Part shown: positions 8,156 to 32,709 of the stretch, in pieces | Position numbering within the stretch: the stretch's first letter is position 1 | How the letters are laid out: each line of letters starts with the position of its first letter | The notes under the pieces: model-generated | Seen by the model: the letters and a program-made list of their open reading frames with translations, nothing else | The model's database searches: none | Told to the model about the DNA's origin: nothing | Position numbers and translations under genes: made by a program | Source of the DNA: Nitrospirales bacterium | Lineage (GTDB): Bacteria > Nitrospirota > Nitrospiria > Nitrospirales > UBA8639 | Assembly: GCA_022824735.1 (NCBI GenBank) | Contig: JAJDZI010000115.1 | Location: 1-33,902, forward strand | Direction of reading: 5' to 3' | DNA: 33,902 bases

Positions 8156-9109
8156 CTACACGGTGTTCTCACGGTCGTTTAAGAAAATCCATAGCCTAAT
8201 TTTCAAAGGTAAGGTGATAGCCCACACAGTTTGTTTTATCCATCCGCATAGTTCTTCGTGTTGGATTGGATAGACGTTACGAACACTCCTACCTGGATAT
8301 GGGTTTTCATCTCCTGTCGAAAAAAGAAAAACTAGGTTCTTGTCATCAGCGTCATTTTCATACTCTGAAGGCTCCAATAGCACTTCCCCTGATTTAACCT
8401 GCACATGTGCGAGCTTTCCCTCCTTATGCAGCATGAGGAACTCGAATTTCGGTTTACTCCTAAAGCAAGTCGATTTGATGAGCACCCATTCCCGACTTTG
8501 CAGATAAGCCGCAACAACATCTTCAACATCATCGGGGGTCATTAACAAAAAGAGACATGAGTGGGGAATATCTGACAACAAGTTTTCGAGTTCCTTATCA
8601 TCTATTTCAGGCTCCCATTCAGGATCTTGACGCAACTCGTTAAATAAACGTTCATGCATTTGGGTCACTCGAGGGCTAGTGTGAATTCTCTGGATTGTTC
8701 GTTGTGCAATCGTTCCGCGTTGAATCTGTCCCGAAATAAATTTGGCAGGGACTTCCACCCAAGCGGCCTTTCTGGCATGACCAAGGTCATAACGGTCAAA
8801 TTCGGGGTCAATTTCTCTGCCGTATAAAATTTGGTCATCTTCCACTTTGCACAAATAATATTTCCCCTCTTGGTGAATCCAAACATGATCCCTAGGTTTA
8901 ACGTCTTCCAAAAAATACTGTAGCTCGTAAGGCCACTCCCCCCATGTCTCTATGACGATTTTCTTGGCCTCTTCGAGATCATTGGGGTGCTTATCAACAT
9001 AACCATGATGCCATCCGACCCCAATCAGAGACTTTTCCTTACATTTTGCAAGTACATCGTTGGATGGAACGCTACTGTCGGGTTTTATTGAAAGTTTCCA
9101 AGTTTGCAT
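8156..9109 (-). CDS. EVE/PUA-like N-terminus plus PD-(D/E)XK-like C-terminus; putative modification-dependent nuclease
   Basis: N-terminal IGVGWHHGYVDKHP...VKPRDHVWIHQEGKYYLCKVEDD; C-terminal DVEDVVAAYLQSREWVLIKSTCFRSKPKFEFLMLHKEGKLAHVQVKSGE (E...QxK). Confidence 0.5.
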   Translation of the reverse strand: MQTWKLSIKPDSSVPSNDVLAKCKEKSLIGVGWHHGYVDKHPNDLEEAKKIVIETWGEWPYELQYFLEDVKPRDHVWIHQEGKYYLCKVEDDQILYGREIDPEFDRYDLGHARKAAWVEVPAKFISGQIQRGTIAQRTIQRIHTSPRVTQMHERLFNELRQDPEWEPEIDDKELENLLSDIPHSCLFLLMTPDDVEDVVAAYLQSREWVLIKSTCFRSKPKFEFLMLHKEGKLAHVQVKSGEVLLEPSEYENDADDKNLVFLFSTGDENPYPGRSVRNVYPIQHEELCGWIKQTVWAITLPLKIRLWIFLNDRENTV

Positions 9110-9550: not shown

Positions 9551-12500
9551 TTACGATTCCTCAAACCCGTGCGACTCGAAGCGAAGGGTCTGGCAGTTCT
9601 CCGTGATGACGCGCTGCATATCTTCCGAAACACCTTCCGGCGTCTCGGCCTCGATCTCGACCCTCACCTTGACCTTGCCTCGGGGCAGTGTCGTGAGGTG
9701 CTGCAAGACCTCTTCCGTCACTTTCCCCATATCCCGGCCGGCCCGATCTGGGTCGATCTCAACTGTGCCGAAGAAGCGGCGCGGCAAACGTGGCCTTCGC
9801 GGCTCTTCACTTGATCCGGAGATGTCAGATATGGGTCGCGCACCGGGTACCGCGCTGGGTTCCAGTTCAAGCACCTCGGGCTCTGGACGTTCATTTGCAA
9901 TCTGCGCTCGCGCCACATCCGCTTTGACGAACACACTGGCCGCATCGACGTAGATCGCTGCAGCTGGCGTGCCACATTTCAATCCTTCGTAGCGGCCATC
10001 CGCAGATATGCTGGTCGCGTACCCAAAGTAATCGCCACTGGCGATGCCGTCCTGGATCGCTTCGACAAATACTGCTTGGTCGCGGAGTCTCGGTAGATAG
10101 CAGTATGCGGAAAGCGCATCCCATACCTTTTTCACAGAGACGTGGTCTTGGTCATTCCAGAACCAACGGTCGAGTTCCATCCTGAGTAGCACCGGCGACC
10201 ACTTGATGATCAGGTGTTCGCTTCCCCGCATTCGTCGAGAAGCTCTGGTCACAATGGAATCGCCGTTTCCGTTTGCTTGGGTAACATCCCATTCGAGAGA
10301 GCCCACGTTGCCGTTTTCGACAGTCTGACTCGGCACGACCAGCCAACGATAGGCCTCGGCTAAACGAAGCTTGACGGTCTTGTCACTCGCGCTCTCGCCT
10401 TCCGAGGCTTCGCGCCGCTGGTGGGCATCAAGGTTCAGCACATCATGGTCGCGGACCACGGACTGCCAGGCGAGGAAGCGTCGGGCTTCCTGCTTCAGTC
10501 CTTCCATCACTTCCTGGTCGGGCGCCAGAAATCCGAGCATATTGCGGTTCTGCCGCGGGCTGCCACCGCGGTTGGCCAGAATGTCACCAGCTGCCTTGAG
10601 TGCTGCTTTCTCTGGATCGTTTCTCTTGTGCGTTGCGTGTGGCCGCAGGATAACGAGACGGACTTCCTGTTCGTCTGGGACATCGCCCGATGACGCCGGG
10701 CAAGTGTGGATGCCTTTGAAATCGCCCCGCTCCCGGCGCGTTGCCTCATGGATACGCTGTTCAATCTCGCTCTCGACTTGGTCATCCGAAAACTGCTGCG
10801 CGCGCTCCTCGACGGTCCGCCGCAGGTTGGGTCGCGTGTCGTACCAGTAGCGGCGCTCCTTGCGATAAAAGTAGGTCAGTCGGTCCGAAGTTGCGACAAA
10901 GCATCGTTGAAGACCGAGACCTGCTCGCCCGGCTGCACGACGGCAAGGCGCACACGCATGTCCTCGACACCGCGGACCTGTTGCTGGACGACGTGCGGCG
11001 CGCTCCCTAGAAAGACGCCCCGCGCGACCCGCCGTGCGGCCATCCCTTGGCCGAAGCGCGGGTTATCCGAATCGACGCGTAGCGGGCCAGAATTGCGCCC
11101 GTCTATATCGCTTTCCAGCACCGAGGTCCAGCCTTCGGGCAGATAACGCGTCAGTTCTTCTCGTACAGTGACGGTGTCGAGGCCGAGAGAACCAGGCATA
11201 ATCAGCAGGCTGGCGTCATTGCGCACACAGAGGTCGTGTATCACCGCCGCCATAAGTCGCAGGACACCTCGCGTGCGCTGGAACCGTTCCAGCGTCGCCC
11301 AGTCGGTGTAAAGTCGGTCGAATACCTCAGGATGGATCGGGTAGCAGGCTTTCATCCGTTCCAAATAGCGGGCCTCTCGGCACTCCGAGGGGAACTCGAT
11401 GCCGCTGTCCCGGTAGAGCGTACTGAAGGCACGGCACACCTCGTCGCGCGCGGATTCATCGCCGAGCGGCAGGAACAGCCGCCGCCGCACGACCTCGAAT
11501 CCTTCCTCGGAGCCGACGGGCTTCCAGATCGCCTCCATCCGCCCAAAGGTATGCTCAATGCGCGCCAACGTTTCCTGGCCCGCCTCACCTCCGATTTCGA
11601 TATCCGACTCCGGGATTGTAGCGACCAGGGCCGTATTCTTGCTGGCGCGCACAGCCTCCGTGAGTTCCTGTATGAAGGTCTGCACAGCGTCAAAGCTGCC
11701 AGATATCAGACTTTCGACGCCATGGATCTTACGAGCATAGGCGACGAGTTCGTCGATCAGAATTAGGCAGGGACCGCAGGCATCGAACAGCGTACGAAGC
11801 GTGTCCGAGCCAGGTGGCACTCCCTTCCGGTCCGAGTCACGCACATGGTCGTAGAGTTTCCTGTTTCCCGCTTGCTCGGCAAGCTGAGCCCCGATCTCGC
11901 CCCATAGCGTGCGGATGGTGATACCCTGGAGGTTACGTGGACGCCGTTCCTTAGTCGGGTTCAGCGCCGTTCCCACCACCACGGCTACCCGGGCATGAGG
12001 CACGCGCTCAATTCCGGCTTCCTGCAACAAGGCCGCGACTTGCGGCAGCCGGTCGAGCGGTGCGCGGCCACGGAGTAAGTGGTAAAGCGCCAGCAGGGAA
12101 TGTGTCTTGCCGCCGCCGAAGGCGGTCTTAAGTTGGATGACCGGCTCGCCACCCTTGCCGCTCACTCTGTTCAGCGCTTGGAGAAGAAGCCCGCGAATGC
12201 CCTCAGTCAGATAGGTGCGGGCGAAGAACTCGACGGGATCTTGATATTCAACTGCCGCCGTGCCACGTGCGACTTGGGACAAGTCCGCGGCGAACTCGGC
12301 CTGCCGGTATCGTCCGGCGGCGACGTCAGGGTGCGGCTGGGCGATGTCCCGCCACGGCTGCAGCCCCTGGCGTGAAACGGTTGTCAGAACGCCCCCCCAT
12401 CTTCTTTCCGTGGTTTGGTCTTCTTTATGTCGTTTACGCTGCTCACCGTCGTCGACGGACCCTCGGTGCCATAGCGTACCGTGCGAGCCAGGGAGCGTAA

Positions 12501-12941
12501 GCGTTCGGTTGCCTCTGAATCTAGATGCTCGATGACTCGCGTCATGGTGTCCAGCGCTCGCCACGCGTCCTCGTCCTTCATGTCGAACAGACCCTTATGC
12601 GCCCATTTGTTGCGAGTCACAATGAGTTCCTTGATCCAGGTCCGGTGCTCGCGGCTGAGCTTGAGTTGGAACAGTTCGTGCCACCGAACATCGATCAGAA
12701 GCAGACACCGGGCTGCATCGAGCGTCGCAATTAGTTCGTCCTCTTTACCTTCCGCCGGCAGATTCCGCTTCTGGTTGTCGTGGAGAATGGCAAGAATGCC
12801 TTGTCCCCACCATTCTTTGCCGAACCGAGCCTGCAACTCACGAGCAATGTAGGGCGCCAGAACCTCGGTCAGAATCTCGAAACCTTCGGTGACACGCTGG
12901 TGGTAGGTGGTCATCAAGTCCGCCTGTAGGTTTGCAAGCAA
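9551..12941 (-). pseudogene. Swt1-type HEPN + DUF499 ATPase, split by two frameshifts
   Basis: ORF 12384..12941: IARELQARFGKEWW...LIVTRNKWAHKG (HEPN RNKWAH). ORF 10876..12564: QLKTAFGGGKTHSLLALYHLL (Walker A), CLILIDELVAYAR (Walker B). ORF 9551..10540 plus upstream frame LTYFYRKERRYWYDTRPNLRRT... is the C-terminal part. Frame changes near 12392-12398 (G7 tract) and ~10880. Confidence 0.75.
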
Positions 12942-12974
12942 AACGCCTGCGGAGTAATACGCATCTCGTTCACC

Positions 12975-15747
12975 TTACAGTTCCAGGTCCAATTGCGAGG
13001 GGCGACCAGAGGTGAGCCGCGCGACCTCGGCTTGAATCTGTGGCCATGAGCTGATGAGAATATTATAGGCCAGCGCTTCGCCAGTCCAGTCTTTGCGTTC
13101 CGACATGGTATAGAGGCGGTAAGCGAGCGCGCGTGCATTCTCCACCCGAGCGGGCCCCATGGCGGCGGCGAGTCGTGCGGCCTCCATGATGCCGCCCCCG
13201 GTCTCAACCGTCATGGCGCGCACCAAGTGCTGGACACACTCCCAGTCGGCGATCCGTTTGTCGGTCGTCGGATCCCAGGCCGGATCCAGTTCGTCTCGGC
13301 GCTTGAGGCGGACCTTGCCAGCACCACCGACGATCACGCCGGCCTTTTCCAATCCCGCAAACGAAGTGTTCTTGGCGGTGAATAACACCTCCGCTTCGCC
13401 ATAGGCGCGCTCGGCGGTGCCGTATTGCTCGAACTAGGCAACGCAGAACCGTGTATCGGCGTCCATGTCGCCCTCGGCTTCGGCCAGGGTCTCGTCGAGC
13501 ACGCGGTTGATTTCGATCAACGCTTGGCGCACTGACATCGCCGCACCATCGGCTTCTAGAACTTGAGGGTAGCGGGAGAACACGGCCATGCCCGGTCCGA
13601 TGGCAGCTTGAGCGAGGTCTACCGGGGCAATGCTTGCATGTTGAAGGGTTCTCACCGCAATGGGTAGCTCATGTTTCAGGATGTTGGCAAACTCACGACG
13701 TGATATAGATTGGGCCTCTGGATCGCGTGCCCGGCAAACGATGACAATGGCAGAAGCAAGGGCGTTCGTATTTCGCGCGACTGATCGAGCTTTCTTGGTC
13801 GTACGAACAGGCCATGTGCCAGTGATCGCGAACCCAGCTTTGACGAGCCCGTCTAGCATAGCCTCCCAGCCGGTAGAAGCAGTGGCACCGTTGCCCGCGT
13901 CGTCGGCAACTGTCTCTGATTGCTTAAAGGCATAATAGACAGTCATTGGGACCTTAAAATCCGTGACTCGACGGAGGCTCCGGAAAGCAGCCGTGAATCC
14001 TTGACGGAAATGGGCTTCTGCGGCGTTAGCCGAGCCATCATGCCGATATGGCGATGCGATCAACTCCGCAGATTTGGGTGCTAGAACAGTCTGGAATGAT
14101 TGCGGATCGATTTCACGAAGTGTCCTTCTGAGCCACACGTAGAAGAAATCCGATAGATCAGCATAACCAATATTGTCGTAGTACGGTGGATCAGTGGAAA
14201 CAGCTACTCGTTCATAAATTGGGGGATTATCTGATCTGGCATCGTACTGAAAAACGTTTGCAGGAAGCACGTGTTCCGCTGGTACCCGGTCGAGCGAGTC
14301 GGCAATCCACCTTGAAGCGACGGAGAAGTCCAGTTTTCCTTCCAGCGGGTTTGCTTCGGCGAAATCCCAAGCCATAGGTATAGCCTGTCTTTGGAACAGG
14401 TGACTGACATTTTCGTTTGTCGGATTCCAGGTTGCCAGCGCGCAGTGATAATCAGTCATTCTTGAAAGAGCGAAAGCCAAATAGATTGAGATCGTATCGG
14501 CGTAAGCTTGAGCGCCAGTGCCACCCTCGGCGAGGAAAATGCCGTCAGCGCCACCAACTGCCGGTCGGTGAAGAGGTTCGCGAAGGTCGTTAGTCCATAG
14601 AGCGGACACCAGATCGCTCGAGGTTCCTTTGGAAGCGCTTCAGTCGGTCGCCACATCGGCCTCGCTTTACGCGCAGCCCTCTCCATTTCCTCAGTCGGAT
14701 CGAGATAGGCACGTCCTCGTTTGCCTTCCGCCACCACCGCCATCAGCCGAGCGTCCATACGGCCTGCCATGCCTTCGGCCTTAATGTGCGTAGCGTGGAC
14801 CGGCACATCATCCGTGGAGACCAAACAGGTGAAGGTTGGCTCTCGACCGGTCTTGGTGCCCGACTTGACCTTGGTTCCCGACTTTGCCTTGGCCATATCT
14901 TCAATTCCAAGATCTTTTGACTTTACAGAAAACCTATAGCCGCCACGCTCGATGACGGGCACAACGATGGCCTCCCTGTTCTTCTTCGACGACAACACAA
15001 AGGAATTTGCGAGCGGCACATGCACGCCGTTGGCCGCAGGATTGGGGCTTACAACTGTACGCGTCCAGAGCCAAGCGCTCACTGCGACCTCGGTCCCTCC
15101 GGGCAGCTGCGCCTTGGGGTAGTGGTGGCCAATCCGTTTCTTTGCCTCGGCGCGTATCCAGCGTCCGTAGTAGCGCACGTCCTCGGCCAAGCCATCTGCT
15201 CCTTTACCGTTCCAGGCCATTCCCCTAGCGAGTTTCTGTTGAGCTTCCGGGTTGACAGGCGGCAGACCTCCGAACGCTTGTGGATACTGCAGTAGCGCTT
15301 TTTGAATAGTGACGGCGACCGGATTCAAATCGCTGCTGTAGACACGCAAACCAAGACGCTGGGCTTCGATACAGATGCTGCCACGGCCAGCGAACATGTC
15401 CCAGACGGCCGGAGGGGTGCACCATACTGACGCTCAATGATGCTCCTTGCATTGTCGATCGTTTGCGAATCTGTGATTGCATCCCACGTGCCGAGCCGTC
15501 GGATCAGATCAACCAATGGTTCTCTCACCTTGTCCGCATGCTCTCCAACAAGACCTTCACCTGGATCATCCACGAGTTGAGCAAACAGGATGGCACGGCA
15601 TACGGACAGAGGCGTCCGCGCCCACCAGTTATGGATCGCCCGAGGATGACCCTTCAGGAACGGGTTCTCCGTTTCCGGCTTAGAGCCGTCATTGATCGCC
15701 TCCAACGGCAGCGCGACTTCAATAAGCTTTTTGCGATAGGCGGTCAT
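12975..15747 (-). pseudogene. DUF1156-type DNA methyltransferase, two frameshifts and one nonsense codon
   Basis: Start KKLIEVALPLEAIN...GHPRAIHNWWARTPLSVCRAILFAQLVDDP; DMFAGRGSICIEAQRLGLRVYSSDLNPVAV; VSTDPPYYDNIGYADLSDFFYVWLRR; end DTRFCVA*FEQYGTAERAYGEAEVLFTAKNTS. Frame changes ~15405-15417 and ~14530-14560; TAG at 13434-13436. Confidence 0.8.
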
Positions 15748-16411: not shown

Positions 16412-16582
16412 CTACCGCTCTTTTACCACGGATTCCACCTCGGCATGAGCGTCAGCTGCTGCCTCGATATGGCTTAACACCGGCAGAAGCTCTTCACAAA
16501 CATCACGAGTAAGAGGACGTAGCAAACCCAACGATCTAGTGCAATTTGACGACCAGAAGTTGAGAGAACAAGGCGGGGTCAC
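16412..16582 (-). CDS. Possible 56-aa small ORF between helicase and nuclease (not in ORF track)
   Basis: GTG at 16582 overlaps the helicase stop (GTGA); VTPPCSLNFWSSNCTRSLGLLRPLTRDVCEELLPVLSHIEAAADAHAEVESVVKER. Confidence 0.3.
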   Translation of the reverse strand: MTPPCSLNFWSSNCTRSLGLLRPLTRDVCEELLPVLSHIEAAADAHAEVESVVKER

Positions 16583-19500
16583 GACGGAATCTCTCCACGC
16601 GCCAGCAATTCGGTAAGCTTGTAAGACACACTCGTTGCCCCAAAATCCGGTTCGCGTTTGAACGGCTGGCGGACATAGCTCGGCTCAGCCGCTACGCCGT
16701 TCGATATCTCGACGATGGCAAGAATGAAGGCATCTGGCTTATTGAGCGCGGTCAGGATCTCGTTGCGCGTGACGTTCACTGTGTCAGCGCCGTCGGCCCG
16801 GCCCTTGACCTCAATGAAGCGTAACCGGCCGGTATCTTTCTCCCGCGATTCCACATCATAGCCCAGCCGCTCGGTGCTCACATCCTGCGGTTGATGGCCG
16901 AGCGTCCGTTCAGCAGCCATCACCGCCTCCATCGCCATGCATTCGACGGCGGCGCGTCCTTCGGGGGTGGTCTTGCGCAAAGCGAAGGCCGGGGTTTCCC
17001 GGTCTGTCACCTTGCGCAACAGGCCGGCCGGTATGACAATGGCGCCACCGCGCACTTGCGGCGGCAAGGCTGAAATGTCTCGTTCCTTGGAAAGTTCCGC
17101 GCGACGCCGTTGTAGACGGTCGGCGAGTTCGTTTGCCCGCGCCGCGGCTTGGTCACCCGAAAGCCGGGTACGGTGGCCGGCCCGTTCTCGCGCTCTCAGA
17201 TCCTGGGTGCGGTGGTCCCAATAGTTGATCTCCTTCTTGAGACGTGCAGTGACCTCACGTTCCACTTTGTCAATCTCAGGGAGACGCCGATTGCGCACTT
17301 CCTCGACATGACGCGGGACGACGGATGCAATCGCGTAGCCGACAACTTTTTCTTCGATGTTACCTGACAGCCAGGGCGCTCTCAATGCTTCAGTGACCAA
17401 CGATCGCTCACCGTCCTTTAGGGGTCTGTAGTCGAGATAGGGTGCCGGTCCAGCGTCCCGTGTATGTCCGCTTGAGTCGATCTCTACGAACTGGAGACGT
17501 CGGGAGACGATCTGTTGACGTCCATCGCGGTCAGCGCGGCCGTCTTGAACTTCGTGCTCGAGATAGAACAGCACACGAAGATTCTCGCCGTCGTCGGTCG
17601 CGTCTACCAGCATCGCCCCACGTTTCAGCAGGTCGCGGTGGCGTTCGATTACCAGATCCATTGTGGCGTCAAGCAAGGGATGGCCGGGACAGACATAGGC
17701 AGCGACCGGTGGCTGGTTGATGTTCTCCTTCTCGAAACAGACACGCTCGTAACGCGCCTGGACCGGCGCGCCGAGCCCGATCAGTCGGTCGCGGTGGCGA
17801 ATGGGACCGGGGACGCGGGTGATCTCCCAACGTCCAGTCTCGCGTTTGTTGATGTGCCCGCCCAGATGCCGGAATGCCTCAAGGAAGAAAGTCTGGATGT
17901 GAAAAGGTTGCAGTCGTCTGGCCTCCGCGCGATCCATTTCCTCGCGGATACGAGCCGCGTCGGCTGTAGTCATCGTGTCTCGGACGAGCGCGTGTTCATC
18001 AATCAGGTCGAAAAGATGTTGCTGATCTGCCGCGTTGTCCACCTCTTGGAACAGACGCGCCTTGACGGCTGGTTGCTCGCCGTAGCGGATCGCCTCCATC
18101 AGCAGGTCGCGTAGGGGGCGAGCTTCGAACAAGCGGCCTAGCACGTCGTACACCCGGCCACCGAGGGCAGCCCGTGCTACTTCGATTTTCTCCAGAAGAC
18201 GCGAATAGACCTCGCCCTCGCGCGTATAGGCCGCGACCAGATTCCAGCAATGGCAAACCTCGGTCTGGCCGATGCGGTGAATGCGGCCAAAGCGCTGCTC
18301 GAGCCGGTTGGGATTCCACGGCAGGTCGTAGTTGACCATGAGATGTGCCCGCTGGAGATTGATGCCCTCGCCGGCAGCGTCGTTGGCAACCAACGCAAGC
18401 ACTTCCTTATTGTGGGTGAAGGCCTCAACTGTTTTACGCCGGTCTTCACGCCCGACGCCGCCGTGGATGACGACCACTGCCTCGGGCCGGCCGAGCCGTG
18501 TCTGGATGCGATCGACAAGGTAGTTCAGTGTATCGCGAGGTTCGGTGAAGACAATCAGCTTGCGGCGGTTGCCGTCCTCGTCGGTCATCAAGGGGTGGTC
18601 GAGAATGTCATTCAACTGTGTCCATTTGGTATCAGTGCCCGATCGGCGTAACGCCAGGGCCTGCGCTTCAAGTCGACTCAGCGTTGCGATTTCGATTTCC
18701 AGTTCGGAAATGGTGCGCGCGGCCGTCGCCTGGTCGAGGATCTCCTCCTCGGTTGCTTCGGCCTCGTCGCTCGGCGCATCCTCGATCTCGGCCTCGTCCA
18801 TGTCCGACCACGCCGGGAGTCGGGGCTCTGCGGTTAGGTCGGCCTCCCGGCCCCGATTCGGCATCCGTTCTTCTGTCAAACGCGTTTCGAGACGCTCGCG
18901 ACGACGCAATGACTCGTGGATGGCGGCCGGCGAAGAAGCAAGCCTGCGCTGCAAAATGGACAGGGCGAATCCGACGTTCTGTCGGCGCTTGTCGTCCTTG
19001 GTAGTAAAGCGCTCGACCCGGTTCATCTCTTCCCGTACATAGGCCGTGACCTCGGCATAGAGCGCGGCCTCTGCCTGTGATAACTCGTAGTTGACGGTAT
19101 TGGCACGTCGTTCGGGGAACAACGGCTTACCATCGAATTTCAGCAGTTCTTCTTTGGTCAGTCGACGCATTAGGTCTGAAACGTCAGCCTGATGTACACC
19201 GTCGCGGAAGCGGCCCTCGAACCGGTCGGCGTCGAGCAGCGCCATGAAAAGTTGGAAGTCCTGCTCCTTGCCGTTGTGGGGTGTCGCCGTCATCAACAGG
19301 AAATGGCGGGCGCGGGCGCCGAGACACTGGCCGAGTTGATAACGTTTGGTATACTTCACCTCGCGGCCAAAGTAACTGGCCGACATGCGATGTGCCTCGT
19401 CACAGACGATCAGGTCCCACTCGCCAGTCGCCTCGAGCTTGGTCTGAAGCTCCGGGTCGCGGGCAAGCATGTCGAGACGGGCGATCAAGAGGTTACGCTC

Positions 19501-20091
19501 GGCGAACGGGTTTGCAGTGCGCGCGGCTTCCACCTGGTCCCTGGTCAAAATGTCGAAGGGCAGGCCAAACTTCTCATGAAGCTCGTCCTGCCATTGTTCC
19601 ACCAGCGCGCCGGGTGCGACGACGAGACAGCGCTCGACGTCACCTCGTATCATCAATTCCTTGATAAACAGGCCGGCCATGATCGTCTTACCGGCACCGG
19701 GATCGTCGGCCAAGAGAAAGCGCAAGGGCTGGCGCGGCAGCATCTCGCCATAGACCGCCGTAATCTGGTGCGGTAGAGGCTCGATGCGCGATGTATGGAT
19801 GGCAAGGTAGGGATCGAACAGGTGCGCGAGGCGGATACGGTAGGCTTCGGAGACGAGCCTCAGTAGCGCTCCGTCGCCGTCGAACGACCACGGGCGCCCA
19901 GCCTCGACGACATCGAGCGAGGGCTCCTCATTGCGATATACGAGTCGATTGCGGACGACGCCTGCCGAGTCCTTGTACGTGACCTCGACCGCTTGGTCGC
20001 CGAACCACTTGATTTGGATGACCTCGGCTGGTCCATCAGGAGCCAAGCCCTTGATGAAAGAGCCGGACCGTAAGTCTTCAAGGGTTGCCAC
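16579..20091 (-). CDS. SNF2-family helicase with C-terminal DUF3883-like domain
   Basis: LLADDPGAGKTIMAGLFIKELM, LIVCDEAHRMSA, LLMTATPHNGKEQDF, NYDLPWNPNRLEQRFGRIHRIGQ; C-terminal LGYDVESREKDTGRLRFIEVKGRADGADTVNVTRNE. Uninterrupted 1170 aa. Confidence 0.92.
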   Translation of the reverse strand: MATLEDLRSGSFIKGLAPDGPAEVIQIKWFGDQAVEVTYKDSAGVVRNRLVYRNEEPSLDVVEAGRPWSFDGDGALLRLVSEAYRIRLAHLFDPYLAIHTSRIEPLPHQITAVYGEMLPRQPLRFLLADDPGAGKTIMAGLFIKELMIRGDVERCLVVAPGALVEQWQDELHEKFGLPFDILTRDQVEAARTANPFAERNLLIARLDMLARDPELQTKLEATGEWDLIVCDEAHRMSASYFGREVKYTKRYQLGQCLGARARHFLLMTATPHNGKEQDFQLFMALLDADRFEGRFRDGVHQADVSDLMRRLTKEELLKFDGKPLFPERRANTVNYELSQAEAALYAEVTAYVREEMNRVERFTTKDDKRRQNVGFALSILQRRLASSPAAIHESLRRRERLETRLTEERMPNRGREADLTAEPRLPAWSDMDEAEIEDAPSDEAEATEEEILDQATAARTISELEIEIATLSRLEAQALALRRSGTDTKWTQLNDILDHPLMTDEDGNRRKLIVFTEPRDTLNYLVDRIQTRLGRPEAVVVIHGGVGREDRRKTVEAFTHNKEVLALVANDAAGEGINLQRAHLMVNYDLPWNPNRLEQRFGRIHRIGQTEVCHCWNLVAAYTREGEVYSRLLEKIEVARAALGGRVYDVLGRLFEARPLRDLLMEAIRYGEQPAVKARLFQEVDNAADQQHLFDLIDEHALVRDTMTTADAARIREEMDRAEARRLQPFHIQTFFLEAFRHLGGHINKRETGRWEITRVPGPIRHRDRLIGLGAPVQARYERVCFEKENINQPPVAAYVCPGHPLLDATMDLVIERHRDLLKRGAMLVDATDDGENLRVLFYLEHEVQDGRADRDGRQQIVSRRLQFVEIDSSGHTRDAGPAPYLDYRPLKDGERSLVTEALRAPWLSGNIEEKVVGYAIASVVPRHVEEVRNRRLPEIDKVEREVTARLKKEINYWDHRTQDLRARERAGHRTRLSGDQAAARANELADRLQRRRAELSKERDISALPPQVRGGAIVIPAGLLRKVTDRETPAFALRKTTPEGRAAVECMAMEAVMAAERTLGHQPQDVSTERLGYDVESREKDTGRLRFIEVKGRADGADTVNVTRNEILTALNKPDAFILAIVEISNGVAAEPSYVRQPFKREPDFGATSVSYKLTELLARGEIPS

Positions 20092-20683: not shown

Positions 20684-23600
20684 TCACATAGCCGTTATTT
20701 TTTTCAAATCCCAAAATGGGTTTCCACCTTCTTGAATAAGTATGTTAATCAAAGCAGACGTTTTCGACTTCGTTCCTAGATTGTCATGAAGAATTTTGAA
20801 TGCCTGTACCCACTGACCCCAATCTTCAGTGCCTAGCAGTATCTCCCGTTGTCCGCCTTTCCGAATGCCTCCCTCAAGTAAATACAATCGAGCAATCTTA
20901 AACGTATCTTTCGGATTGGCTTTTGCAAGCCGGACTATTGACTGGGTGAGTTTAAAATCCGAATCGAACGCCCCCTTAGTTTTTTCAAGTGTTTTCCTGA
21001 CGCGTTCTGCAAGCCATGCAGGCTCAAAAAGTCCGACTTCGAGATTGATCCAGAAGTCAAATTCAAGGAACGGTTTTGGATTCTCGTAGTTCTCAAGTAG
21101 CCAGTTCCAAAAATCTTTTAGCCGTTGTTTGCTTTCGGGCACCCTTTTCAAAAATTCAGGTGCATTTGCATTATTTCCAGATACAAATGAGTGTCCAAGA
21201 AAATTCACAAAACTTGCATGTCGTTCGAGATTGTTTTCTTTCCAGAAGGCTTTAAATAAAGGATGGCCGAACCCGAATCTTTTGTAGTGCATAAAGGCAA
21301 GCGCAAGGTGTTCCGTTATACCCTTGTCAGGTTTTTTGAAATGTTCCTGCTGTGGCGGGAAATCGGCATTCGTTAGCGCAAGGCCCCGCTCATAGAGTTC
21401 TTGGATTTCAGGATCAAAAAACATCTCCTCGTATAAGTTATTGGCAAGATAGCCTTCCCATGCCGCTGTATAGAGAGGCTTCTTGGCCGGCTCCTGAGAA
21501 AATATCTGTGGCAGGAGCCCTCGAACCCAATTCCTATCTCGGTAATAAGAAAACGGAAGGTACTGTCCAAACATAAACATGAGGGCGCGCGTCGTTTCTT
21601 TCTCTAGAGCCCTTTCGTATAACTCTTTCACATCGGAGCTAATTTTTACTACATCCTCCTTTTTGAACTTCTTGCCGTCCTGATCCACAAAATAAGCAAA
21701 TGTCTTGAAAGCTTGGCCACGTACGGAATTAACGGCCATATGCAAAGGATCGCTGACTTGGTAGCCTGCATCATTAGCAGGTACGCTTTCAGTGCCATAA
21801 AATACTTCATCAAAAGCGCGCTGCTCAGGTGATTTAATTTTGGATTTGGCGGTATCAATTTGTTCGTCTTCCGGAGACGGATCGGGGTGTGAAAGGAGAT
21901 AGCCTACAATGCTGAAAATCCGGTCTCGATATGCACCAAAAGCAATCGGCACCAAGCTGTTCTCTTCGGTAAGTAACGCCTGCAAAACTTCGGTCATAGC
22001 GAAGTGAACCGCACCCCAGCCAGCACGAAAAGTATCGAACCATCCTCGGTCTCCTCTTTCTTCTTCAAATGGAGCTTTCTCCCCGGATACTTTTATTGCC
22101 ATACACAGATCAATGACCCCATCCCAATTTACATTTGAAGCGTGTACCCTATCGGCATTGATCGCTTTCTGAATTCCCCACAAGAAAGAATAGGTGTAGT
22201 GTTCATCCAGCACTCCTCGCTCGAAGAAGCTCTCGGCGTTCCGGACATATTCCTGTAGCCGATTAGGTATATCGCTTTTCAGTGATTCGCTAACGCCATC
22301 CGCATTGCGAGGGTTCAGAAAATCATCGGTTGTGTTTTGTTTGGTCAGTTCATTTGGCTCCCACTCATTGCGGAGTAGCTCGGCTATCTGGGCGATGGAG
22401 AGTTCCCCAAATTCTTCCTGTGGAAGGGGCCTTCGCGGCACTATGGTTCCGACACGCGGCCTGCCTATTCTTGGTTTCGGCTGATAGTTTGTGTCGAGAG
22501 TGAATCCTGCTTCTCCTGCGTGACTTTTCTCTTCTTCCGTAAGCTGATTTGCAATCATCGAAAAAATTCGAGAACCATTGCGAATACGCAAATATGTTTC
22601 TTCCGTCTCTTGTCCTTGGCCCTGTTGCACAAAATATTTCACAACCCGCTTCACGTAGTGATGTTTGTCCTGATCTGACAATGCGGTAAATCCTTTTTGC
22701 AGAGCCTTTTCATACTCTGCGCCTGCGATAATTTCGTGGTATTGCTCAACTTCAAATAGGCGAAACAAGGCTTTCTTGAGTTTATCCTTAAAAGCCTCCG
22801 GGCACAGGCTCAAGACAAACAGCCGCAAACGCCACATTGCTTGGCTGTCGGGTAGTTTTGCGTCAGGATTATTGAAATCTCCAATAGATTTTTCATAGAC
22901 AGTGCGGACGGCTTCTTGTTCTTCACATCGGCCACCAATCAATTTTTCAGCAAACCTCTTGATAACCGCCGCCAGTTCACGTACATCGTCTTCTGGCGAG
23001 AAATGATTCTCTTGACCTGATTCCAGATCAAAAAAATCTACGTTGAGGAGCATAGAACTGTCGTCAATCTTAAAGACTTTCTCGCTTTCTCCATCATCAC
23101 CAAAAACCTCTTCAGCCGACTGCCAAAGCTGTCCTAGATCAGATTTTTTATTCCATTCTGAAGCAATGACGTCAGCCATTACCTTTGTGGCCAAGTCAAA
23201 CGCCTGTTCCATGTATTCAGCGTCCACATGGGACAAATGCCTAAAAACTTTTTCAAATGACAGGTCGTCAAAATAAAAAGGAGTATCGTGATGGCGGCGC
23301 GGTGCTCTTTCTATTTCTTCTTGGGTCCTCACGGTCAACACAGCCTCGGCAAGAATTAACAAGCTCTTATAATCCTTTGCCATAGCGAGCGTCTTAAGCA
23401 TCTTCCCGTATTGAAAGCTCGAAGGGTTGAATGCACTCATTAGAGGTATCCATCGCTTCTCTCGGATTTTTTCAACCACACGAGCAAGCTGGTCAGCCGG
23501 CAGAGTGCTACAGATAACCAAGAAGCGGTCAACAACTACCAGAGTAAACGTTTCCGAAGATATGAGGACTTGGAGCATAATATTCACTACCTTTGCCGGA

Positions 23601-23827
23601 GCTTTTTTAGACATTCGCACAAGGTAGTTAAGCTCCGGGTGTGGGTCTCCATAGCGGGTCGGATCTTCTGCCTTTTCCTTGATGACGTCTAAAAATCCAT
23701 TTTGCCAAAGAGAATCCAGCCAGCACTCGTCGGCTTTTGCGTAGAAATACCGGCGAGCATCCGGGTTTACATGTATCAGGTTACGGAGTCGCTCCTTATC
23801 CAATTTTTTGTGGGTGTCGTCGCTCAT
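20684..23827 (-). CDS. Large uncharacterised 1047-aa protein of a two-gene operon
   Basis: Long intact ORF, ATG start, no frame disruption; no family recognised by eye. Starts 29 bp after the stop of the 176-aa gene on the same strand. Confidence 0.85.
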   Translation of the reverse strand: MSDDTHKKLDKERLRNLIHVNPDARRYFYAKADECWLDSLWQNGFLDVIKEKAEDPTRYGDPHPELNYLVRMSKKAPAKVVNIMLQVLISSETFTLVVVDRFLVICSTLPADQLARVVEKIREKRWIPLMSAFNPSSFQYGKMLKTLAMAKDYKSLLILAEAVLTVRTQEEIERAPRRHHDTPFYFDDLSFEKVFRHLSHVDAEYMEQAFDLATKVMADVIASEWNKKSDLGQLWQSAEEVFGDDGESEKVFKIDDSSMLLNVDFFDLESGQENHFSPEDDVRELAAVIKRFAEKLIGGRCEEQEAVRTVYEKSIGDFNNPDAKLPDSQAMWRLRLFVLSLCPEAFKDKLKKALFRLFEVEQYHEIIAGAEYEKALQKGFTALSDQDKHHYVKRVVKYFVQQGQGQETEETYLRIRNGSRIFSMIANQLTEEEKSHAGEAGFTLDTNYQPKPRIGRPRVGTIVPRRPLPQEEFGELSIAQIAELLRNEWEPNELTKQNTTDDFLNPRNADGVSESLKSDIPNRLQEYVRNAESFFERGVLDEHYTYSFLWGIQKAINADRVHASNVNWDGVIDLCMAIKVSGEKAPFEEERGDRGWFDTFRAGWGAVHFAMTEVLQALLTEENSLVPIAFGAYRDRIFSIVGYLLSHPDPSPEDEQIDTAKSKIKSPEQRAFDEVFYGTESVPANDAGYQVSDPLHMAVNSVRGQAFKTFAYFVDQDGKKFKKEDVVKISSDVKELYERALEKETTRALMFMFGQYLPFSYYRDRNWVRGLLPQIFSQEPAKKPLYTAAWEGYLANNLYEEMFFDPEIQELYERGLALTNADFPPQQEHFKKPDKGITEHLALAFMHYKRFGFGHPLFKAFWKENNLERHASFVNFLGHSFVSGNNANAPEFLKRVPESKQRLKDFWNWLLENYENPKPFLEFDFWINLEVGLFEPAWLAERVRKTLEKTKGAFDSDFKLTQSIVRLAKANPKDTFKIARLYLLEGGIRKGGQREILLGTEDWGQWVQAFKILHDNLGTKSKTSALINILIQEGGNPFWDLKKITAM

Positions 23828-23856
23828 CGTTATGGTGTCGGTTTATCCAAAAGGCT

Positions 23857-24384
23857 TTATGTCGAAACGCCACTCAAAAATTGGTCAATCTCGTCATGTA
23901 TGTCAGTTTGTCGTTTCAATATGTCTCGCATAACTCTCTGAAACTCAGCTAATAATCGTTCAAAATCTGATATTGTGAAGCTTGAATAATCCAGATTGGT
24001 CGAAGTGCTCCCGTGGTGAGCTAGATCACATAGTTGACCATATACTCTCCCTACTTTATCGATAAAGGCTTTGTCCATATGCACTGAACCGTATTCCTTT
24101 AGGGATTCTCTTTTGTTAGGGACGGTTTCAACTTGATCGCTCCAAAATGGGTAGAGGATTTCTCTCAGGGAGTGAGCAGCTTGCGCAATCAAGTCAGGAT
24201 TACTCTGACATTCTGCTCTGATAGCAAATATTGCACCTTCAAACATTTTCGAGGGTTTCACCTGTAATTCGTATGGCTCGTGCCAGTTGTCCAAACGCCT
24301 ACAAAGGTCCTGTTGCTCGGGGCTTAAAGACGGGGGCGGTAAGGGAGTGACGCCTATCGGTGGCGGCAAGGATTCATCTGTCAT
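23857..24384 (-). CDS. Small helical protein, possibly HEPN-like, partner of the 1047-aa protein
   Basis: KPSKMFEGAIFAIRAECQSNPDLIAQAAHSLREILYPFW...RVYGQLCDLAHHGS; helical, HEPN-like pattern without a canonical Rx4-6H. Confidence 0.75.
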   Translation of the reverse strand: MTDESLPPPIGVTPLPPPSLSPEQQDLCRRLDNWHEPYELQVKPSKMFEGAIFAIRAECQSNPDLIAQAAHSLREILYPFWSDQVETVPNKRESLKEYGSVHMDKAFIDKVGRVYGQLCDLAHHGSTSTNLDYSSFTISDFERLLAEFQRVMRDILKRQTDIHDEIDQFLSGVST

Positions 24385-24736
24385 GTTATTCAGCCATCAC
24401 GTTTAGACCTAAGTCGCGAGTGAGAACGTAGTTGAATTATAACCGTCGGCGCGGCGGGGAGAAAGGGGACGACTGAAAGTCGCATCTCTGATTCGGCCTC
24501 GGCCTCCCAATGGTTTTGCCGCCGGTGCCTGTGTTTCGGTATTGATCCGACCTATGCGGACCGCATTTTCTCTTCCCTGTAAATACAGGGCGATCTCGTG
24601 GAAAAAGCTCGATTATATGAGACGATCCGTGAATTACAACCTCATGAAAGTAAATCGCAGACATTTGGTTCATGCCGGGGGGACGGGAAGCACGGAGTGT
24701 CTAAACTGGAAAGGAAGCGGGGCAGATCGGTGTCAA

Positions 24737-25907
24737 TCATCCATGCAACGGAATCACGTCGGAACGTGGGGCACCAGTGACGTAGTCGGACCACTGTTGC
24801 ATCACCGACCGCCGTCGCTCGAACAGATCAGAACGTTGATAGGCCCCCTCAACTCCTTTGACGACATGGGCGAGACAGGCTTCGGCCACTTCTCGTGACA
24901 CATTCACGTCCGCACACCACGACCGGAAACACGCCCTGGCAATGGCATGTGGTACGCCATTGATCCCGTTCTCTCGGACCAGCTTGGAAATCGTCGCGTC
25001 GGACAGGGCCTTGCCTCGGGCGCTCGGAAACACCAAGGTCGACTGACTCCTGGTCTGGACCTCTCGCAAGATCTCACAGGCCCGTGATGACAACGGTACC
25101 CGATGGTCTTTGCCCGTTTTCGTTCGGGAAGCCGGAATCACCCACATCTTCTTGGTGACATCGATTTCCGCCCATGCCGCCAGCCGAACCTCGCTGGACC
25201 GGGTCGCGGTGAGGACTTGAAACTCAAAGCAGCGGATCGTCGACGGCGCGGCCCCGGACCGTTTGATTGTCTCTAGGGCCTGGGCGACCTGGGCATGCGG
25301 AATCGTTTTATGGGACTTCTTGAGCGTCGCCGTGTTGGGGAGGGCCGCTCGGATGCCGGCGGTCGGGTCATCGGCCCGGAGGCCCTGCGCTTTGGCCCAG
25401 TTGAACGTGCGGCTCATGCGGTGTTTCACCCGCTTGGCGGTTTCCGGTTTGTTCGTCCAAATGGGATCGAGAATCCTCATCACGTCCGACGGCGTGATCT
25501 CGGCGACCGGCTTCTGTCCGATAACCGGGAAGACATAATTCTGCAGAGTCGCCCGCCAGAGCTTCGCGGATTTGCCGCCATGTTTCCATGTGGGCTCGTG
25601 TAAGGCGATCACGGTGTCCGCCGCTTCTTGGAACGTGATGCCGATCGCTTGGCGTTGCCCGTGAATGAGTTTCTCGCCGTGATACCGTTTCCGGCGATTG
25701 TCCATCGCTTTCCGGCGCGCCTCTTCGACGGTGACCACCGGCCAGGGCCCCAAGCCTAAATCGTGTTGGGTTTTTTTGGATCGTCAAGCGTTGCACCCAG
25801 GTTTTTCGCGTGGCGGACTTGACGAGCAGATACAGGGTGGGGATGCGATCCCCATAGCGGCCCGGCGTGTTCAGGGTTTTGATTCTGGTTTCTGTGAGCC
25901 CTTTCAT
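24737..25907 (-). pseudogene. int: P4-type tyrosine integrase, frameshifted at an A7 tract
   Basis: N-terminus MKGLTETRIKTLNTPGRYGDRIPTLYLLVKSATRKTWVQRLTIQK (ATG 25907, AGGGAGG upstream) continues in another frame as ...LGLGPWPVVTVEEARRKAMDNRRKR...RCFEFQVLTATRSSEVRLAAW...HAIARACFRSWCADVNVSREVAEACLAHVVKGVEGAYQRSD. Shift at 25771-25777. Confidence 0.88.
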
Positions 25908-26096: not shown

Positions 26097-26109
26097 ATGG
26101 CGGAGAGGG
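26097..26109. repeat. Candidate attR, overlapping the tRNA-Ser 3' end
   Basis: ATGGCGGAGAGGG, exact copy of 110-122. Confidence 0.65.
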
Positions 26110-26188
26110 CGGGATTTGAACCCGCGGTAGGGGGTTAGCCTACGACGGTTTAGCAAACCGTTGCCTTCGGCCGCTCGGCCACCTCTCC
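26098..26188 (-). tRNA. tRNA-Ser(GCT)
   Basis: Reverse complement GGAGAGGTGGCCGAGCGGCCGAAGGCAACGGTTTGCTAAACCGTCGTAGGCTAACCCCCTACCGCGGGTTCAAATCCCGCCCTCTCCGCCA; class II long variable arm, anticodon GCT, encoded CCA. Confidence 0.95.
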
Positions 26189-28074: not shown

Positions 28075-29445
28075 TTATCGGCCCAGTAGTGTCTCGGGAG
28101 TTGGAACCTGGCCCAGTATCAGGGAGCGGGCCTGATAAACGCCGGGTAAGCCGGCTCCCGTGGCGTAGACCAGGCCTTTCTCGCGTATTCCCAATGCCAC
28201 ATGTCCGCGGGGCCGGCCTTTTTGGTCGATCCCTGCGATTTCGATAGCCGGTGACGTCAGCCCGTATTGATCCGGCTCATCATTGGTTTCACTCACGGGC
28301 AGCTCCGCCGGAAGATCCACGACACGGCTGACAAACAATGTGACTTGCTGTTGATCGATCGATTCCTCTTCTTTCCCTTCAAGATACCATTCTCCGTGCT
28401 GTTGAATGAGCGTGTATTGCGAGTCATTGGTGGTGACGGTCAACAGCGCGACTTCCCCCATTTCCATGCCGAATAAGCGTTTGTCCTGCAAGTGAAACGT
28501 TTCACGCGGCAGATCCTGGAGCACGTGGGCCGGTATCCGGTAGATGGGATCGTTCGCGGTCGTGACGGCGTACGCGTCTTCACCGGGAACGACCGGCTTG
28601 AAGAAGGCCACGTGATGACCACGTTGTTTGGTATGAACGGTTGCCGTCAAGGATGGGGGGTCGAGTTTCATGAGGAGTGCTTCTTTCTCGGCCTGTGAAT
28701 CGATAAAGCCCGTTGCCGTCAGATCTTCGAGTGTCATCAAGAGAATGCCGACCGCGGTTTTATCGGCAGGGGCGTTCACCGGAGACGTGAAATTCCATTG
28801 GGAAACCGGGCCATGGAATCCGGCTCCACGCTGGAGCGTGATGGTTTGCCGGGTTGTTTGCAGTTGGATGCGTTCAGCATGGGTCCTGTCGAAGAAGAGG
28901 ACGTCTTTCAGGCGAAAGGTGTCCAGGGTTTTTGCCCGAAAATCCCCGACCATGAGCGTGGTCAGCAAGATGTTCCGGTCCGATCCCCGCTGCGCATAGA
29001 GGGTGGAGGATATGGGCCCCGTATGACCCAAGGCCAACGATTCGGTATATGCCGGCGTGGCCAGGTCAATGGTAACGTAGGGAGACTGCAATCCGTATTG
29101 CTCGGCGGCCGTGTCCTGCTCCTGACCGTTCTTTTGAATGACGCGGGAGATTTTGCCGATTTCCAGGGCACGCAATACGCTTTCAATTTCACGCGCGTCG
29201 CCCCGGGCTTTCACGGGTTCGACGATCCGCCAACGATTGCGTTCATCGCGGTTCATCAGGATTCGCTCGGTGCGCGTGGTATACGTCAGGTGCGTCACGT
29301 CACGGTAGTCGAAGGGCAGAAGCCGTTGTGCCTCGGTTTCCCGGAGCACGTCCTGTTTCATGGTCGGCACTTCGATGGTATAGACGTACACTCCCAGCAC
29401 CACAAAAATGATCGCCAGGAGGAGCGTGGTTCGGAACGGTGTCAT
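28075..29445 (-). CDS. DUF4340-like membrane-anchored protein
   Basis: N-terminal TM, DYRDVTHLTYTTRTERILMNRDERNRWRIVEPVKARGDAREIESVLRALEIGKISRVI; adjacent to Gld-type ABC genes. Confidence 0.8.
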   Translation of the reverse strand: MTPFRTTLLLAIIFVVLGVYVYTIEVPTMKQDVLRETEAQRLLPFDYRDVTHLTYTTRTERILMNRDERNRWRIVEPVKARGDAREIESVLRALEIGKISRVIQKNGQEQDTAAEQYGLQSPYVTIDLATPAYTESLALGHTGPISSTLYAQRGSDRNILLTTLMVGDFRAKTLDTFRLKDVLFFDRTHAERIQLQTTRQTITLQRGAGFHGPVSQWNFTSPVNAPADKTAVGILLMTLEDLTATGFIDSQAEKEALLMKLDPPSLTATVHTKQRGHHVAFFKPVVPGEDAYAVTTANDPIYRIPAHVLQDLPRETFHLQDKRLFGMEMGEVALLTVTTNDSQYTLIQQHGEWYLEGKEEESIDQQQVTLFVSRVVDLPAELPVSETNDEPDQYGLTSPAIEIAGIDQKGRPRGHVALGIREKGLVYATGAGLPGVYQARSLILGQVPTPETLLGR

Positions 29446-29453
29446 GGGAATGC

Positions 29454-30971
29454 TCAGAGACGGCTGCGTTGTCGCCATACCGTCAGGCCCAACAAGAGTA
29501 TCAGGAACGGCACCGAAAAGACCTGTACGGCGAACAGCATATGTTCCTGGGTGGGATTCGGAATAAACGGCGGGAAGGCGGATTCTTTGGGACTGACCGA
29601 AATCAGCGTGTGTTCATTCGCCAACCAGGCAACGGCGTTGAACAGAAAATCGGTGTTTCCAGGAAATTGCAAATAGGTGTTGCTGGCAAAAGCCGAATTG
29701 CCGATAACCACCATTGCGGGAGCCGGTTCCAAGCCGGTGCGTTTCCGGCTCAATGCGCCGGCGAGCCCAAACGGACCTTTTGCATCGACGCCTTCGTCAA
29801 ATTCCGGTGTGGTTTCCACAAAATTTGTTTCGGCCCAACTCTCTTCCGACGATTGCAAAAGAGCGGTGAACTCCAGGTTGGTATCCGGAACGCGCTCAAA
29901 CGAAACCGGTTGCAGGACGGGCAGCAGGACCGGAGAGGTAAAGCCCCTGGTAATAGGATGGTTGGTGAATCGACGGACGAGCAAAGCCGTCGGGCTGCCT
30001 TGGGCCACACGGTCTTCGGGATCGACAACGATCCCCGGTCCAAGCGTCAATCCCCATTGCGCCATCCATTCTTCGAGACCATTCGGCGCTTGCGGGTCGA
30101 GGAGGAGCAGAACCCGTCCGCCCTTGGCCGTGAAGTTGGCGACGTGCGTCAATTCTTCCGGTTCAACGGACTCGCGAGGACCGGGAATAATGAGGACCGC
30201 GGCATCGTCAAGCAATGCCGGGTTTTTCCGGATTGAACCACGGGCGATCCGGTATCCTTGTGCTTCGAGGTGTTGCCTGGCCAGTGACAGCCCGCCGCGT
30301 TCCTGGTTTGTGATTTGGCGCTCGCCGTGTCCTTCCAGAAAAACGAGGCGCTTGGCGTCTGCGGTCGTCACTCGGATCAAGGCGCTTGTCAGGTTCGATT
30401 CACCGGGTTTGGGGACGTGGACGGTCCGCTCGCCGCTTTCAAAGACGGCCGTGTCGATTTTGGAAATCTCATATTTGCGAGCCAAACCCGGTTCTTTCTC
30501 AGGATCGACGTAGGTGACGGAAATTCGCGGGCTTGAATAGGCGTAGCCTTCCAGCAGGTCACGATACATCCGGAATCCCGGACTTCGTTCATGGGTAAAC
30601 ACCAGTACCCGGACGTCTTGTCCGAGTTGCCCAAGCACTTGCAGGGTTTGTGGGGCCAATGAGAAGTTTCGAGTTTCGGACAAATCCCACCGCCCGCCGT
30701 GCCGGATCACCAGAACATTGATGATGGTCAGGATGCCGGCCATGAGCAGGATGGCCAGGATGCCGTTGAATCCGAGTCGCGTCGCCCGCGAGCCGGAAAA
30801 GGTTTTGAGTCGCGTCCAATTCCCGGCAAAATAGATCACGAGACACACCAACGCAATCCCTTCCAATAAAAAGACCGTGCTTTGGGCCGTGGTGTGAGGA
30901 AGGAGCAGCCCGCCGATTCCCGTGCCGGCTCCCAGGATGCCGAGGATGGGTAAGAGGTGTTTTATGACCAT
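29454..30971 (-). CDS. GldG-like ABC-associated auxiliary protein
   Basis: RWDLSETRNFSLAPQTLQVLGQLGQDVRVLVF..., AVLIIPGPRESVEPEELTHVANFTAKGGRVLLLLDP, terminal TM helix. Confidence 0.82.
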   Translation of the reverse strand: MVIKHLLPILGILGAGTGIGGLLLPHTTAQSTVFLLEGIALVCLVIYFAGNWTRLKTFSGSRATRLGFNGILAILLMAGILTIINVLVIRHGGRWDLSETRNFSLAPQTLQVLGQLGQDVRVLVFTHERSPGFRMYRDLLEGYAYSSPRISVTYVDPEKEPGLARKYEISKIDTAVFESGERTVHVPKPGESNLTSALIRVTTADAKRLVFLEGHGERQITNQERGGLSLARQHLEAQGYRIARGSIRKNPALLDDAAVLIIPGPRESVEPEELTHVANFTAKGGRVLLLLDPQAPNGLEEWMAQWGLTLGPGIVVDPEDRVAQGSPTALLVRRFTNHPITRGFTSPVLLPVLQPVSFERVPDTNLEFTALLQSSEESWAETNFVETTPEFDEGVDAKGPFGLAGALSRKRTGLEPAPAMVVIGNSAFASNTYLQFPGNTDFLFNAVAWLANEHTLISVSPKESAFPPFIPNPTQEHMLFAVQVFSVPFLILLLGLTVWRQRSRL

Positions 30972-31732
30972 CGGTGTGAATCGACGACGCGATGCGCAAT
31001 GAACAACGTCAGCACGATGCCGGACAGGTAGTACACAACGTCTTTCGCTTCCAGGAGGCTGCGAACGAGCCGGTCATAGTGCTCGCTGAATGATAAGTAG
31101 GAGAGGATGGTTCCGGTTGCCGTATCGCCCAATACTGAACCCAGCTCACCGAGTAGCCAGATCAGCAGGATCATCCCGAAACTCAAAAACGCCGCGACCA
31201 CCTGATTTTCGGTCGTGGCGGAGGCCAGGAGGCCGCAGGCCAGGAACAAGCCGCCTTGTAACGCCAGCGCCACGTAGCCGGTCAGAATAGGATGCCAATG
31301 AAAGCTGGTGTACAAGGACAGGATGATGGGGGTCAGGCTCGTCAGGGACAGCAATCCCACATAGATGACCAGCACGCTCATGTATTTGGCGGAAATCAGT
31401 TCATTAATCCCGATAGGCGAAGTGAGCAGGAGTTCAAAGGTGTGCAGCTTCCGTTCTTCCGCGAACAATCGCATCGTCAGGATCGGGAGAAGAAACATGA
31501 TGACGAAATCCAAACTGTAAAACAGTGAACGGAACACCAATTCATTCAGATTCAGTTGGGCGTAGGTGTTTTGGACTTGCAAAAATCGAACGGCTTGTTG
31601 GCCGGCGTTCACCGTCATCAGGTGAGCGATCAAACCGGAAATGAAGAGAAAAACCGCCCCGACGACGTAGAAAATGGGTGAAACGAAAAAACAGCGCAAT
31701 TCTTTTGCGAGGATGGTTTGAAACGGCGTCAT
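30962..31732 (-). CDS. ABC-2 type permease (GldF-like)
   Basis: Multi-TM, ILAKELRCFFVSPIFYVVGAVFLFISG, LTMRLFAEERKLHTFELLLTSPIG. Confidence 0.85.
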   Translation of the reverse strand: MTPFQTILAKELRCFFVSPIFYVVGAVFLFISGLIAHLMTVNAGQQAVRFLQVQNTYAQLNLNELVFRSLFYSLDFVIMFLLPILTMRLFAEERKLHTFELLLTSPIGINELISAKYMSVLVIYVGLLSLTSLTPIILSLYTSFHWHPILTGYVALALQGGLFLACGLLASATTENQVVAAFLSFGMILLIWLLGELGSVLGDTATGTILSYLSFSEHYDRLVRSLLEAKDVVYYLSGIVLTLFIAHRVVDSHRWS

Positions 31733-32709
31733 GCAGGTGGTTGCTCGCTTGAACCGGGACGGCCGGATTCACCGGGCCCGGTGCCTTCCTCCTGGTGCGT
31801 GAGTTGGAGAAAGACTTCTTCCAGGGAAAGGGAGAGGGGTTTGAGTTCGAGGAGTCCGTACCCCTGGCTGACGACAAATTGCGAGAGTGTTTCGCGGAGG
31901 TCCTGTCCCAGTTCACAATCGATGGTGCAGGTATTGGGTGTGGCCGTCGGCAGGACGTCGAGGACGCCGGGAAGCATCCCGAGACGTTCCAGCCAACCGG
32001 GTTGCGGCTGTTTGACCGTGAGGCTCATTTTCTCGGATTGGCGCAACCGGCTGGAAAGGAGATCGGGCGCGTCTTCCGCCACAATGCGTCCCTCGTGAAT
32101 AATCACGACGCGATCACAGGTGGCCATGGCCTCGGGGAGAATATGGGTGCTCAGGATGATGGTGTGTGATCCGGCAAGACTCTTGATCAGTTCGCGTATT
32201 TCGATGATTTGTTTGGGATCGAGACCGACGGTGGGTTCGTCCAGAATCAGCACGGGGGGATCGTGAATGAGAGCCTGTGCCAGACCGACCCGCTGGCGGT
32301 ATCCTTTTGACAGGTGACTGATGACGCGGTGATGCACGTGGCCGAGTCCGACCTGATCGATGACGTGGGACCTCCGGGAAGCCAAGCGTTGCGGCGTCAA
32401 TCGCTTCAATCGGCCCGCGAACGTCAAATATTCATCAACGGTGAGTTCCGGGTAGAGAGGCGGTATTTCGGGCAAGTAGCCGAGGTGTCGTTTGACGTCC
32501 ATCGGCTGGTCCAGACAATCGAATCCTGCAATCGTCGCCGAGCCTTCACTTTGCGGCATGAAACAGGTTAAGATCCGCATCGTGGTGGTTTTCCCGGCCC
32601 CGTTGGGACCCAGGAAAGCCAGGATCTCGCCCTTCTTGACGTGAAACGTGACATCGTCAAGGGCCGTGTGGCGTCCATAGTGTTTTGAAACGTGCTGTAC
32701 GGCAATCAT
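31729..32709 (-). CDS. ABC transporter ATP-binding protein (GldA-like)
   Basis: Walker A GPNGAGKTTT, signature LSKGYRQRVGLAQAL, Walker B VLILDEPTVGLDP. Confidence 0.93.
   Translation of the reverse strand: MIAVQHVSKHYGRHTALDDVTFHVKKGEILAFLGPNGAGKTTTMRILTCFMPQSEGSATIAGFDCLDQPMDVKRHLGYLPEIPPLYPELTVDEYLTFAGRLKRLTPQRLASRRSHVIDQVGLGHVHHRVISHLSKGYRQRVGLAQALIHDPPVLILDEPTVGLDPKQIIEIRELIKSLAGSHTIILSTHILPEAMATCDRVVIIHEGRIVAEDAPDLLSSRLRQSEKMSLTVKQPQPGWLERLGMLPGVLDVLPTATPNTCTIDCELGQDLRETLSQFVVSQGYGLLELKPLSLSLEEVFLQLTHQEEGTGPGESGRPGSSEQPPA

Follow-up and report, generated by a model that had tools for sequence, protein, structure and literature searches.

A probable SIR2-less, two-gene variant of DSR1 with a putative helical effector in a defence island of a Nitrospirales bacterium

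A two-gene operon located in a defence island of a Nitrospirales bacterium probably encodes an anti-phage system of the DSR1 type (defense-associated sirtuin 1; PADLOC PDLC04166, PDLC04167 and PDLC02183) in which SIR2 has been replaced by a helical effector. As far as homology indicates, the pair is a SIR2-less, split variant of DSR1 with a putative helical effector. The DSR proteins are treated as sirtuins; among the relatives described here the SIR2 half proves exchangeable and the sensor stays, which means that a census of DSR1 based on SIR2 overlooks a group of systems. In the part of the literature on DSR1, DUF4020 and effector exchange that was covered, a SIR2-less DSR1 pair was not found.

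The window, i.e., the whole stretch of DNA that was analysed, comprises 33,902 nucleotides (contig JAJDZI010000115.1 of assembly GCA_022824735.1), and the genome from which it comes contains a single copy of the operon. The two genes are intact and collinear on the minus strand, with a gap of 29 bp from the small gene to the large one. The operon stands as the first-pass annotation had drawn it, except that the small protein has 175 residues and not 176. The main features are located as follows:

20684-23827, minus strand: large gene, 1047 aa, sensor with kinship to DSR1 outside SIR2; open reading frame open from ATG to stop.
21374-21760, minus strand: stretch of the large protein that best matches the PADLOC Dsr1 profile PDLC04166 (residues 690-818 against profile positions 892-1021 of 1227).
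23857-24384, minus strand: small gene, 175 aa, putative helical effector; open reading frame open from ATG to stop.
24160-24174, minus strand: conserved motif 1, HSLRE, residues 71-75 of the small protein; the R is found in all aligned members, and the H is replaced (by N) in the congener copy only.
24010-24021, minus strand: conserved motif 2, AHHG, residues 122-125 of the small protein; the first H is found in all aligned members.
24737-25753, minus strand: tyrosine-recombinase integrase of the island (context).
26098-26188, minus strand: tRNA-Ser (GCT) (context).

A congener (genome G006, locus L014) carries the same pair with an identical 29-bp gap. Between the two copies, protein identity is 89% for the small protein and 75% for the large one, and the dN/dS values (NG86) are 0.24 and 0.29, respectively. 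Neither gene is a chance open reading frame; both are under purifying selection, which had been guessed at first sight from their intactness. The block of DNA common to the window and the congener (20703-24390) nearly coincides with the limits of the two genes, as would be expected of a two-gene unit. Related integrase stretches are found near both copies in opposite orientation relative to the operon, as though the two genes travelled together. The small protein of the congener (L014, 4390-4917) has NSLRE where the window has HSLRE, the gene being otherwise conserved. Elsewhere in the congener, on contig 47, lies a further and only distantly similar copy of the pair (L080).

The relationship of the large protein to DSR1 was detected with the PADLOC Dsr1 profile, which matches it at E 3.7e-17. 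The same profile matches all nine members of a set of relatives (A2), the best of them at E 1.1e-47 over profile positions 319-1104 of 1227, a range that corresponds to the part of Dsr1 after SIR2. The window sensor is about 20-24% identical to the other sensors, and relatives from the same order align along the full length at 20-23% identity. When SIR2 was looked for by profile in both window proteins, no match was obtained. Searches of the large protein against Pfam and NCBIfam yielded nothing of note and no recognised enzymatic domain, and a sequence search of solved structures gave no significant match for either protein or for the alignments A2, A6 and A8. By kinship, the large protein is related to the sensor part of DSR1, without SIR2. 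The first-pass annotation, which proposed an undescribed system, had seen no family in this protein; it is related to a named defence family through the non-SIR2 part. A match of the large protein to an already named defence family, which would have counted against the first-pass annotation, is in this way borne out by half.

An indication of what the small protein does comes from the modules that occupy its place in relatives. In 32 complete sensors, the effector was read from the gene just upstream or from a fused N-terminal extension, and a module was present in every one (32/32): SIR2 in 11, the helical family in 20, and an NTPase in one. SIR2 is encoded as a separate gene in 10 cases and is fused in the remaining one (L075), while the helical domain is found as a separate gene in 11 cases, window included, and as a fusion in nine, the fused helical-sensor proteins having about 1180-1190 aa. 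In L075, SIR2 and sensor form one protein that matches Dsr1 at E 7e-249. L069 has the two parts as neighbouring genes: the SIR2 gene matches the N-terminus of Dsr1 (E 8e-51), and the one after it matches positions 310-1225 (E 1e-166). Such a split DSR1, with the SIR2 gene just upstream of the sensor (L069 7764-11569, L051, L057, L071-L074, L077-L079), is a common arrangement among these relatives. Matches to LmuB (E 6e-5) and to ThsA/LmuA in the split loci were taken as chance or as a reflection of the shared SIR2.

The distribution of these modules on the sensor tree, from which two SIR2 fusions of more distant, DSR1-like type (L081 and L082) were left out, argues for exchange. The helical and SIR2 labels are each clustered, yet the starred branches require no fewer than three changes of either one, in what is a quick tree with SH-aLRT values only; for instance, the SIR2 form L051 is nested with helical forms at 98 (SH-aLRT in this quick tree). 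At closer range, the sensors of L052 and L055 are 83% identical over 952 columns and up to 98% locally, whereas their effector halves are about 30% alike or less, and the break falls at the junction. Judging from these comparisons, the effector type is exchanged while the sensor is kept. Natural swaps of this kind, in which closely related sensors have different effectors, constitute material for studying how one sensor controls its effectors. The NTPase case is an archaeal protein of 1501 aa from a Haladaptatus plasmid (WP_266080798; L013 4309-8814). It has a DSR1-type sensor (Dsr1 E 2e-31), but what precedes it is not SIR2 or the helical domain: by eye, its N-terminus shows what look like membrane segments together with a P-loop NTPase motif, with weak matches to PDC-M54A/Avs4.

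The pairing of sensor and helical domain is exclusive in the genomes in which it was looked for. A genome search with the helical domain found it in 10 of 296 genomes of the window's phylum, in 1 of 274 of the class to which the L053 genome belongs, and in 8 of 297 of the phylum of the L062 genome; in all 19 of these genomes, the sensor adjoins the helical domain or is fused to it. This pairing is not built into the search, since the query held the effector domain only. The possibility, raised at the outset, that the two genes do not co-occur elsewhere is contradicted by their finding together across phyla, and the operon proves to be the recurrent two-gene unit that had been supposed, selected and co-occurring. 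No relatives were found in 50,697 phage records or in four viral-contig scans, and a phage origin of the pair was rejected on this ground. In the plasmid search, the large gene retrieved the archaeal protein only, and the small gene retrieved nothing.

The small protein belongs to a family of helical domains in which separate and fused members align together (alignments A1 and A6); two residues, R74 and H123 in the window protein, do not vary in the alignments. By profile comparison, this family is matched by a second fused type, L053-L056 (93% probability, E 3.6e-7), and both helical types have in common an HxxR(E/D) motif followed later by an AHxxG motif. The window copy is the shortest of the separate-gene members and, as in the second type, it is devoid of a central stretch found in most; its identity to most other members is 17-27%. 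The model of the window protein has low confidence (pLDDT 48), but for a homologue, L058, the model reached pLDDT 72 and shows a domain that is helical almost throughout, with a confident core. The Foldseek matches of this model had E values of 0.2 or more in the PDB and of 0.37 or more among viral models, and consisted of chance-level helical bundles. In several members, about 33 residues around motif 1 match PF18165 (pP_pnuc_1, a predicted pPIWI-associating nuclease), mostly below the curated cut-off; the window protein scores 12.3 bits against a cut-off of 26.3, and the best relative (G010) 27.9 with frame neighbours. The likeness is confined to one quarter of the profile; PIWI genes were not noticed in the vicinity of the pairs, and the nuclease activity of PF18165 is itself predicted. 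Through this faint link, a nuclease centred on the invariant R74 and H123 can be offered as a tentative first guess for the small protein. The chances are about even that it represents a new effector class, with a fold absent from solved structures, that serves DSR1-type sensors exclusively and trades places with SIR2; in that case, one kind of phage sensor could drive at least two unrelated effector chemistries. The helical family is, in this sense, a candidate for a new effector activity.

In the mechanism proposed for the operon, the large protein would be the sensor and would bind a protein made by the infecting phage. The small protein would be an all-helical effector that docks on the N-terminal end of the sensor, where SIR2 sits in DSR1; the natural fusions point to this place of docking, and the two window proteins would be expected to touch each other directly. 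Binding of the trigger would release or assemble the effector, which may then act as a toxic protein and halt either the growth of the phage or the cell itself. DSR2 offers a precedent: on binding the phage tail tube protein, its helical C-terminal domain (CTD) activates the SIR2 domain (PMC10973363; PMC10981675). By analogy with DSR2, the large protein may sense a phage component and switch on the small protein.

Both known systems resemble the window pair in part. DSR2 also couples a long sensor to an N-terminal effector, with the logic proposed here (PMC10973363; PMC10981675); however, it is one SIR2 protein, and no sequence kinship of the window sensor to it was detected. With DSR1, the likeness extends to the alignment of the large proteins with the region after SIR2 and to the N-terminal position of the effector module, fused or just upstream. 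Unlike DSR1, the window pair has no SIR2 and carries instead, as a separate gene, a helical domain of another family; it also consists of two genes, whereas DSR1 is a single-gene system, although split SIR2 forms exist too. The divergence of the window pair from the other members counts against its assignment to a DSR1-type system with a helical effector, as do the low confidence of the small-protein model, the N at motif 1 of the congener copy and the shortness of the PF18165 match.

Three other explanations of the pair have to be weighed. In one of them, the small protein is a HEPN-type ribonuclease that the large protein keeps inactive. HEPN domains are common as defence effectors (PMC10952713), and the first-pass annotation had likened the small protein to them; the family is indeed all-helical with an invariant R and H, and several members have an Rx5H at motif 1 (e.g., RIAQTAH in L019). 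Nonetheless, the Rx4-6H signature is not conserved across 21 members. At the aligned place, motif 1, it is absent from the window protein (L for R), from the L067/L070/L080 group and from L053-L056. In addition, the order is reversed, the invariant R following the H, and some 50-125 residues separate these from the second H. The Foldseek search with the L058 model, which gave no significant match, had no HEPN among the best 50, and HEPN-type matches in Pfam are reduced to DUF4145 at E 0.28 in one member only. Such a ribonuclease is improbable, and the likeness to HEPN proteins is not supported. An arrangement resembling a toxin-antitoxin pair, in which the small protein would be an inhibitor or assembly partner and the large protein the active component, is unlikely to the same degree. 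Pairs of that type often have the small gene before the large one and genes that overlap or lie close together, but at least five complete proteins combine the small domain and the sensor in one chain, and this domain is exchanged at the same place with SIR2, a known NADase effector; moreover, the presumed active component is the one without a recognised enzymatic domain.

It is less probable still that the pair has a non-defence role and is mere cargo of the island. Some relatives do lie beside ordinary-looking genes (by eye, L017 and L118; a radical SAM gene is near L018). Against this stand the homology to DSR1, the exchange with SIR2, and the restriction or defence genes beside several copies, namely GmrSD and an Eco57I-type methylase (L014), type III res (L068), HsdS (L054), an Eco57I/TaqI methylase (L075), an SNF2-type helicase (L062) and MmeI (L019). 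This tally of neighbours has no control count and is not a statistic; as such it supports the preferred reading, a DSR1-type defence system, and it fits the defence role that had been proposed from location, such genes being present in the window as well.

The tRNA-Ser (GCT) is the likely attachment site of the island, since the integrase adjoins it. The Hma system of the island has HmaB and HmaC each divided in two open reading frames (9551-15397, minus strand), beside an intact HmaA (16579-20091). The damage among the neighbours of the operon that had been noticed earlier is thus real at the level of the sequence, HmaA excepted, and it reflects either a decaying Hma system or assembly errors. 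Two further genes of the island have recognisable relatives: a 264-aa protein with an Abi_C domain (5607-6401, plus strand; PF14355, E 7e-14), which is a further candidate abortive-infection gene, and a 317-aa protein that matches the PADLOC candidate defence family PDC-S02 (8156-9109, minus strand; E 5e-63). An ABC-type transporter operon with DUF4340 and ABC_transp_aux genes (28075-32709, minus strand) is probably the housekeeping flank of the island.
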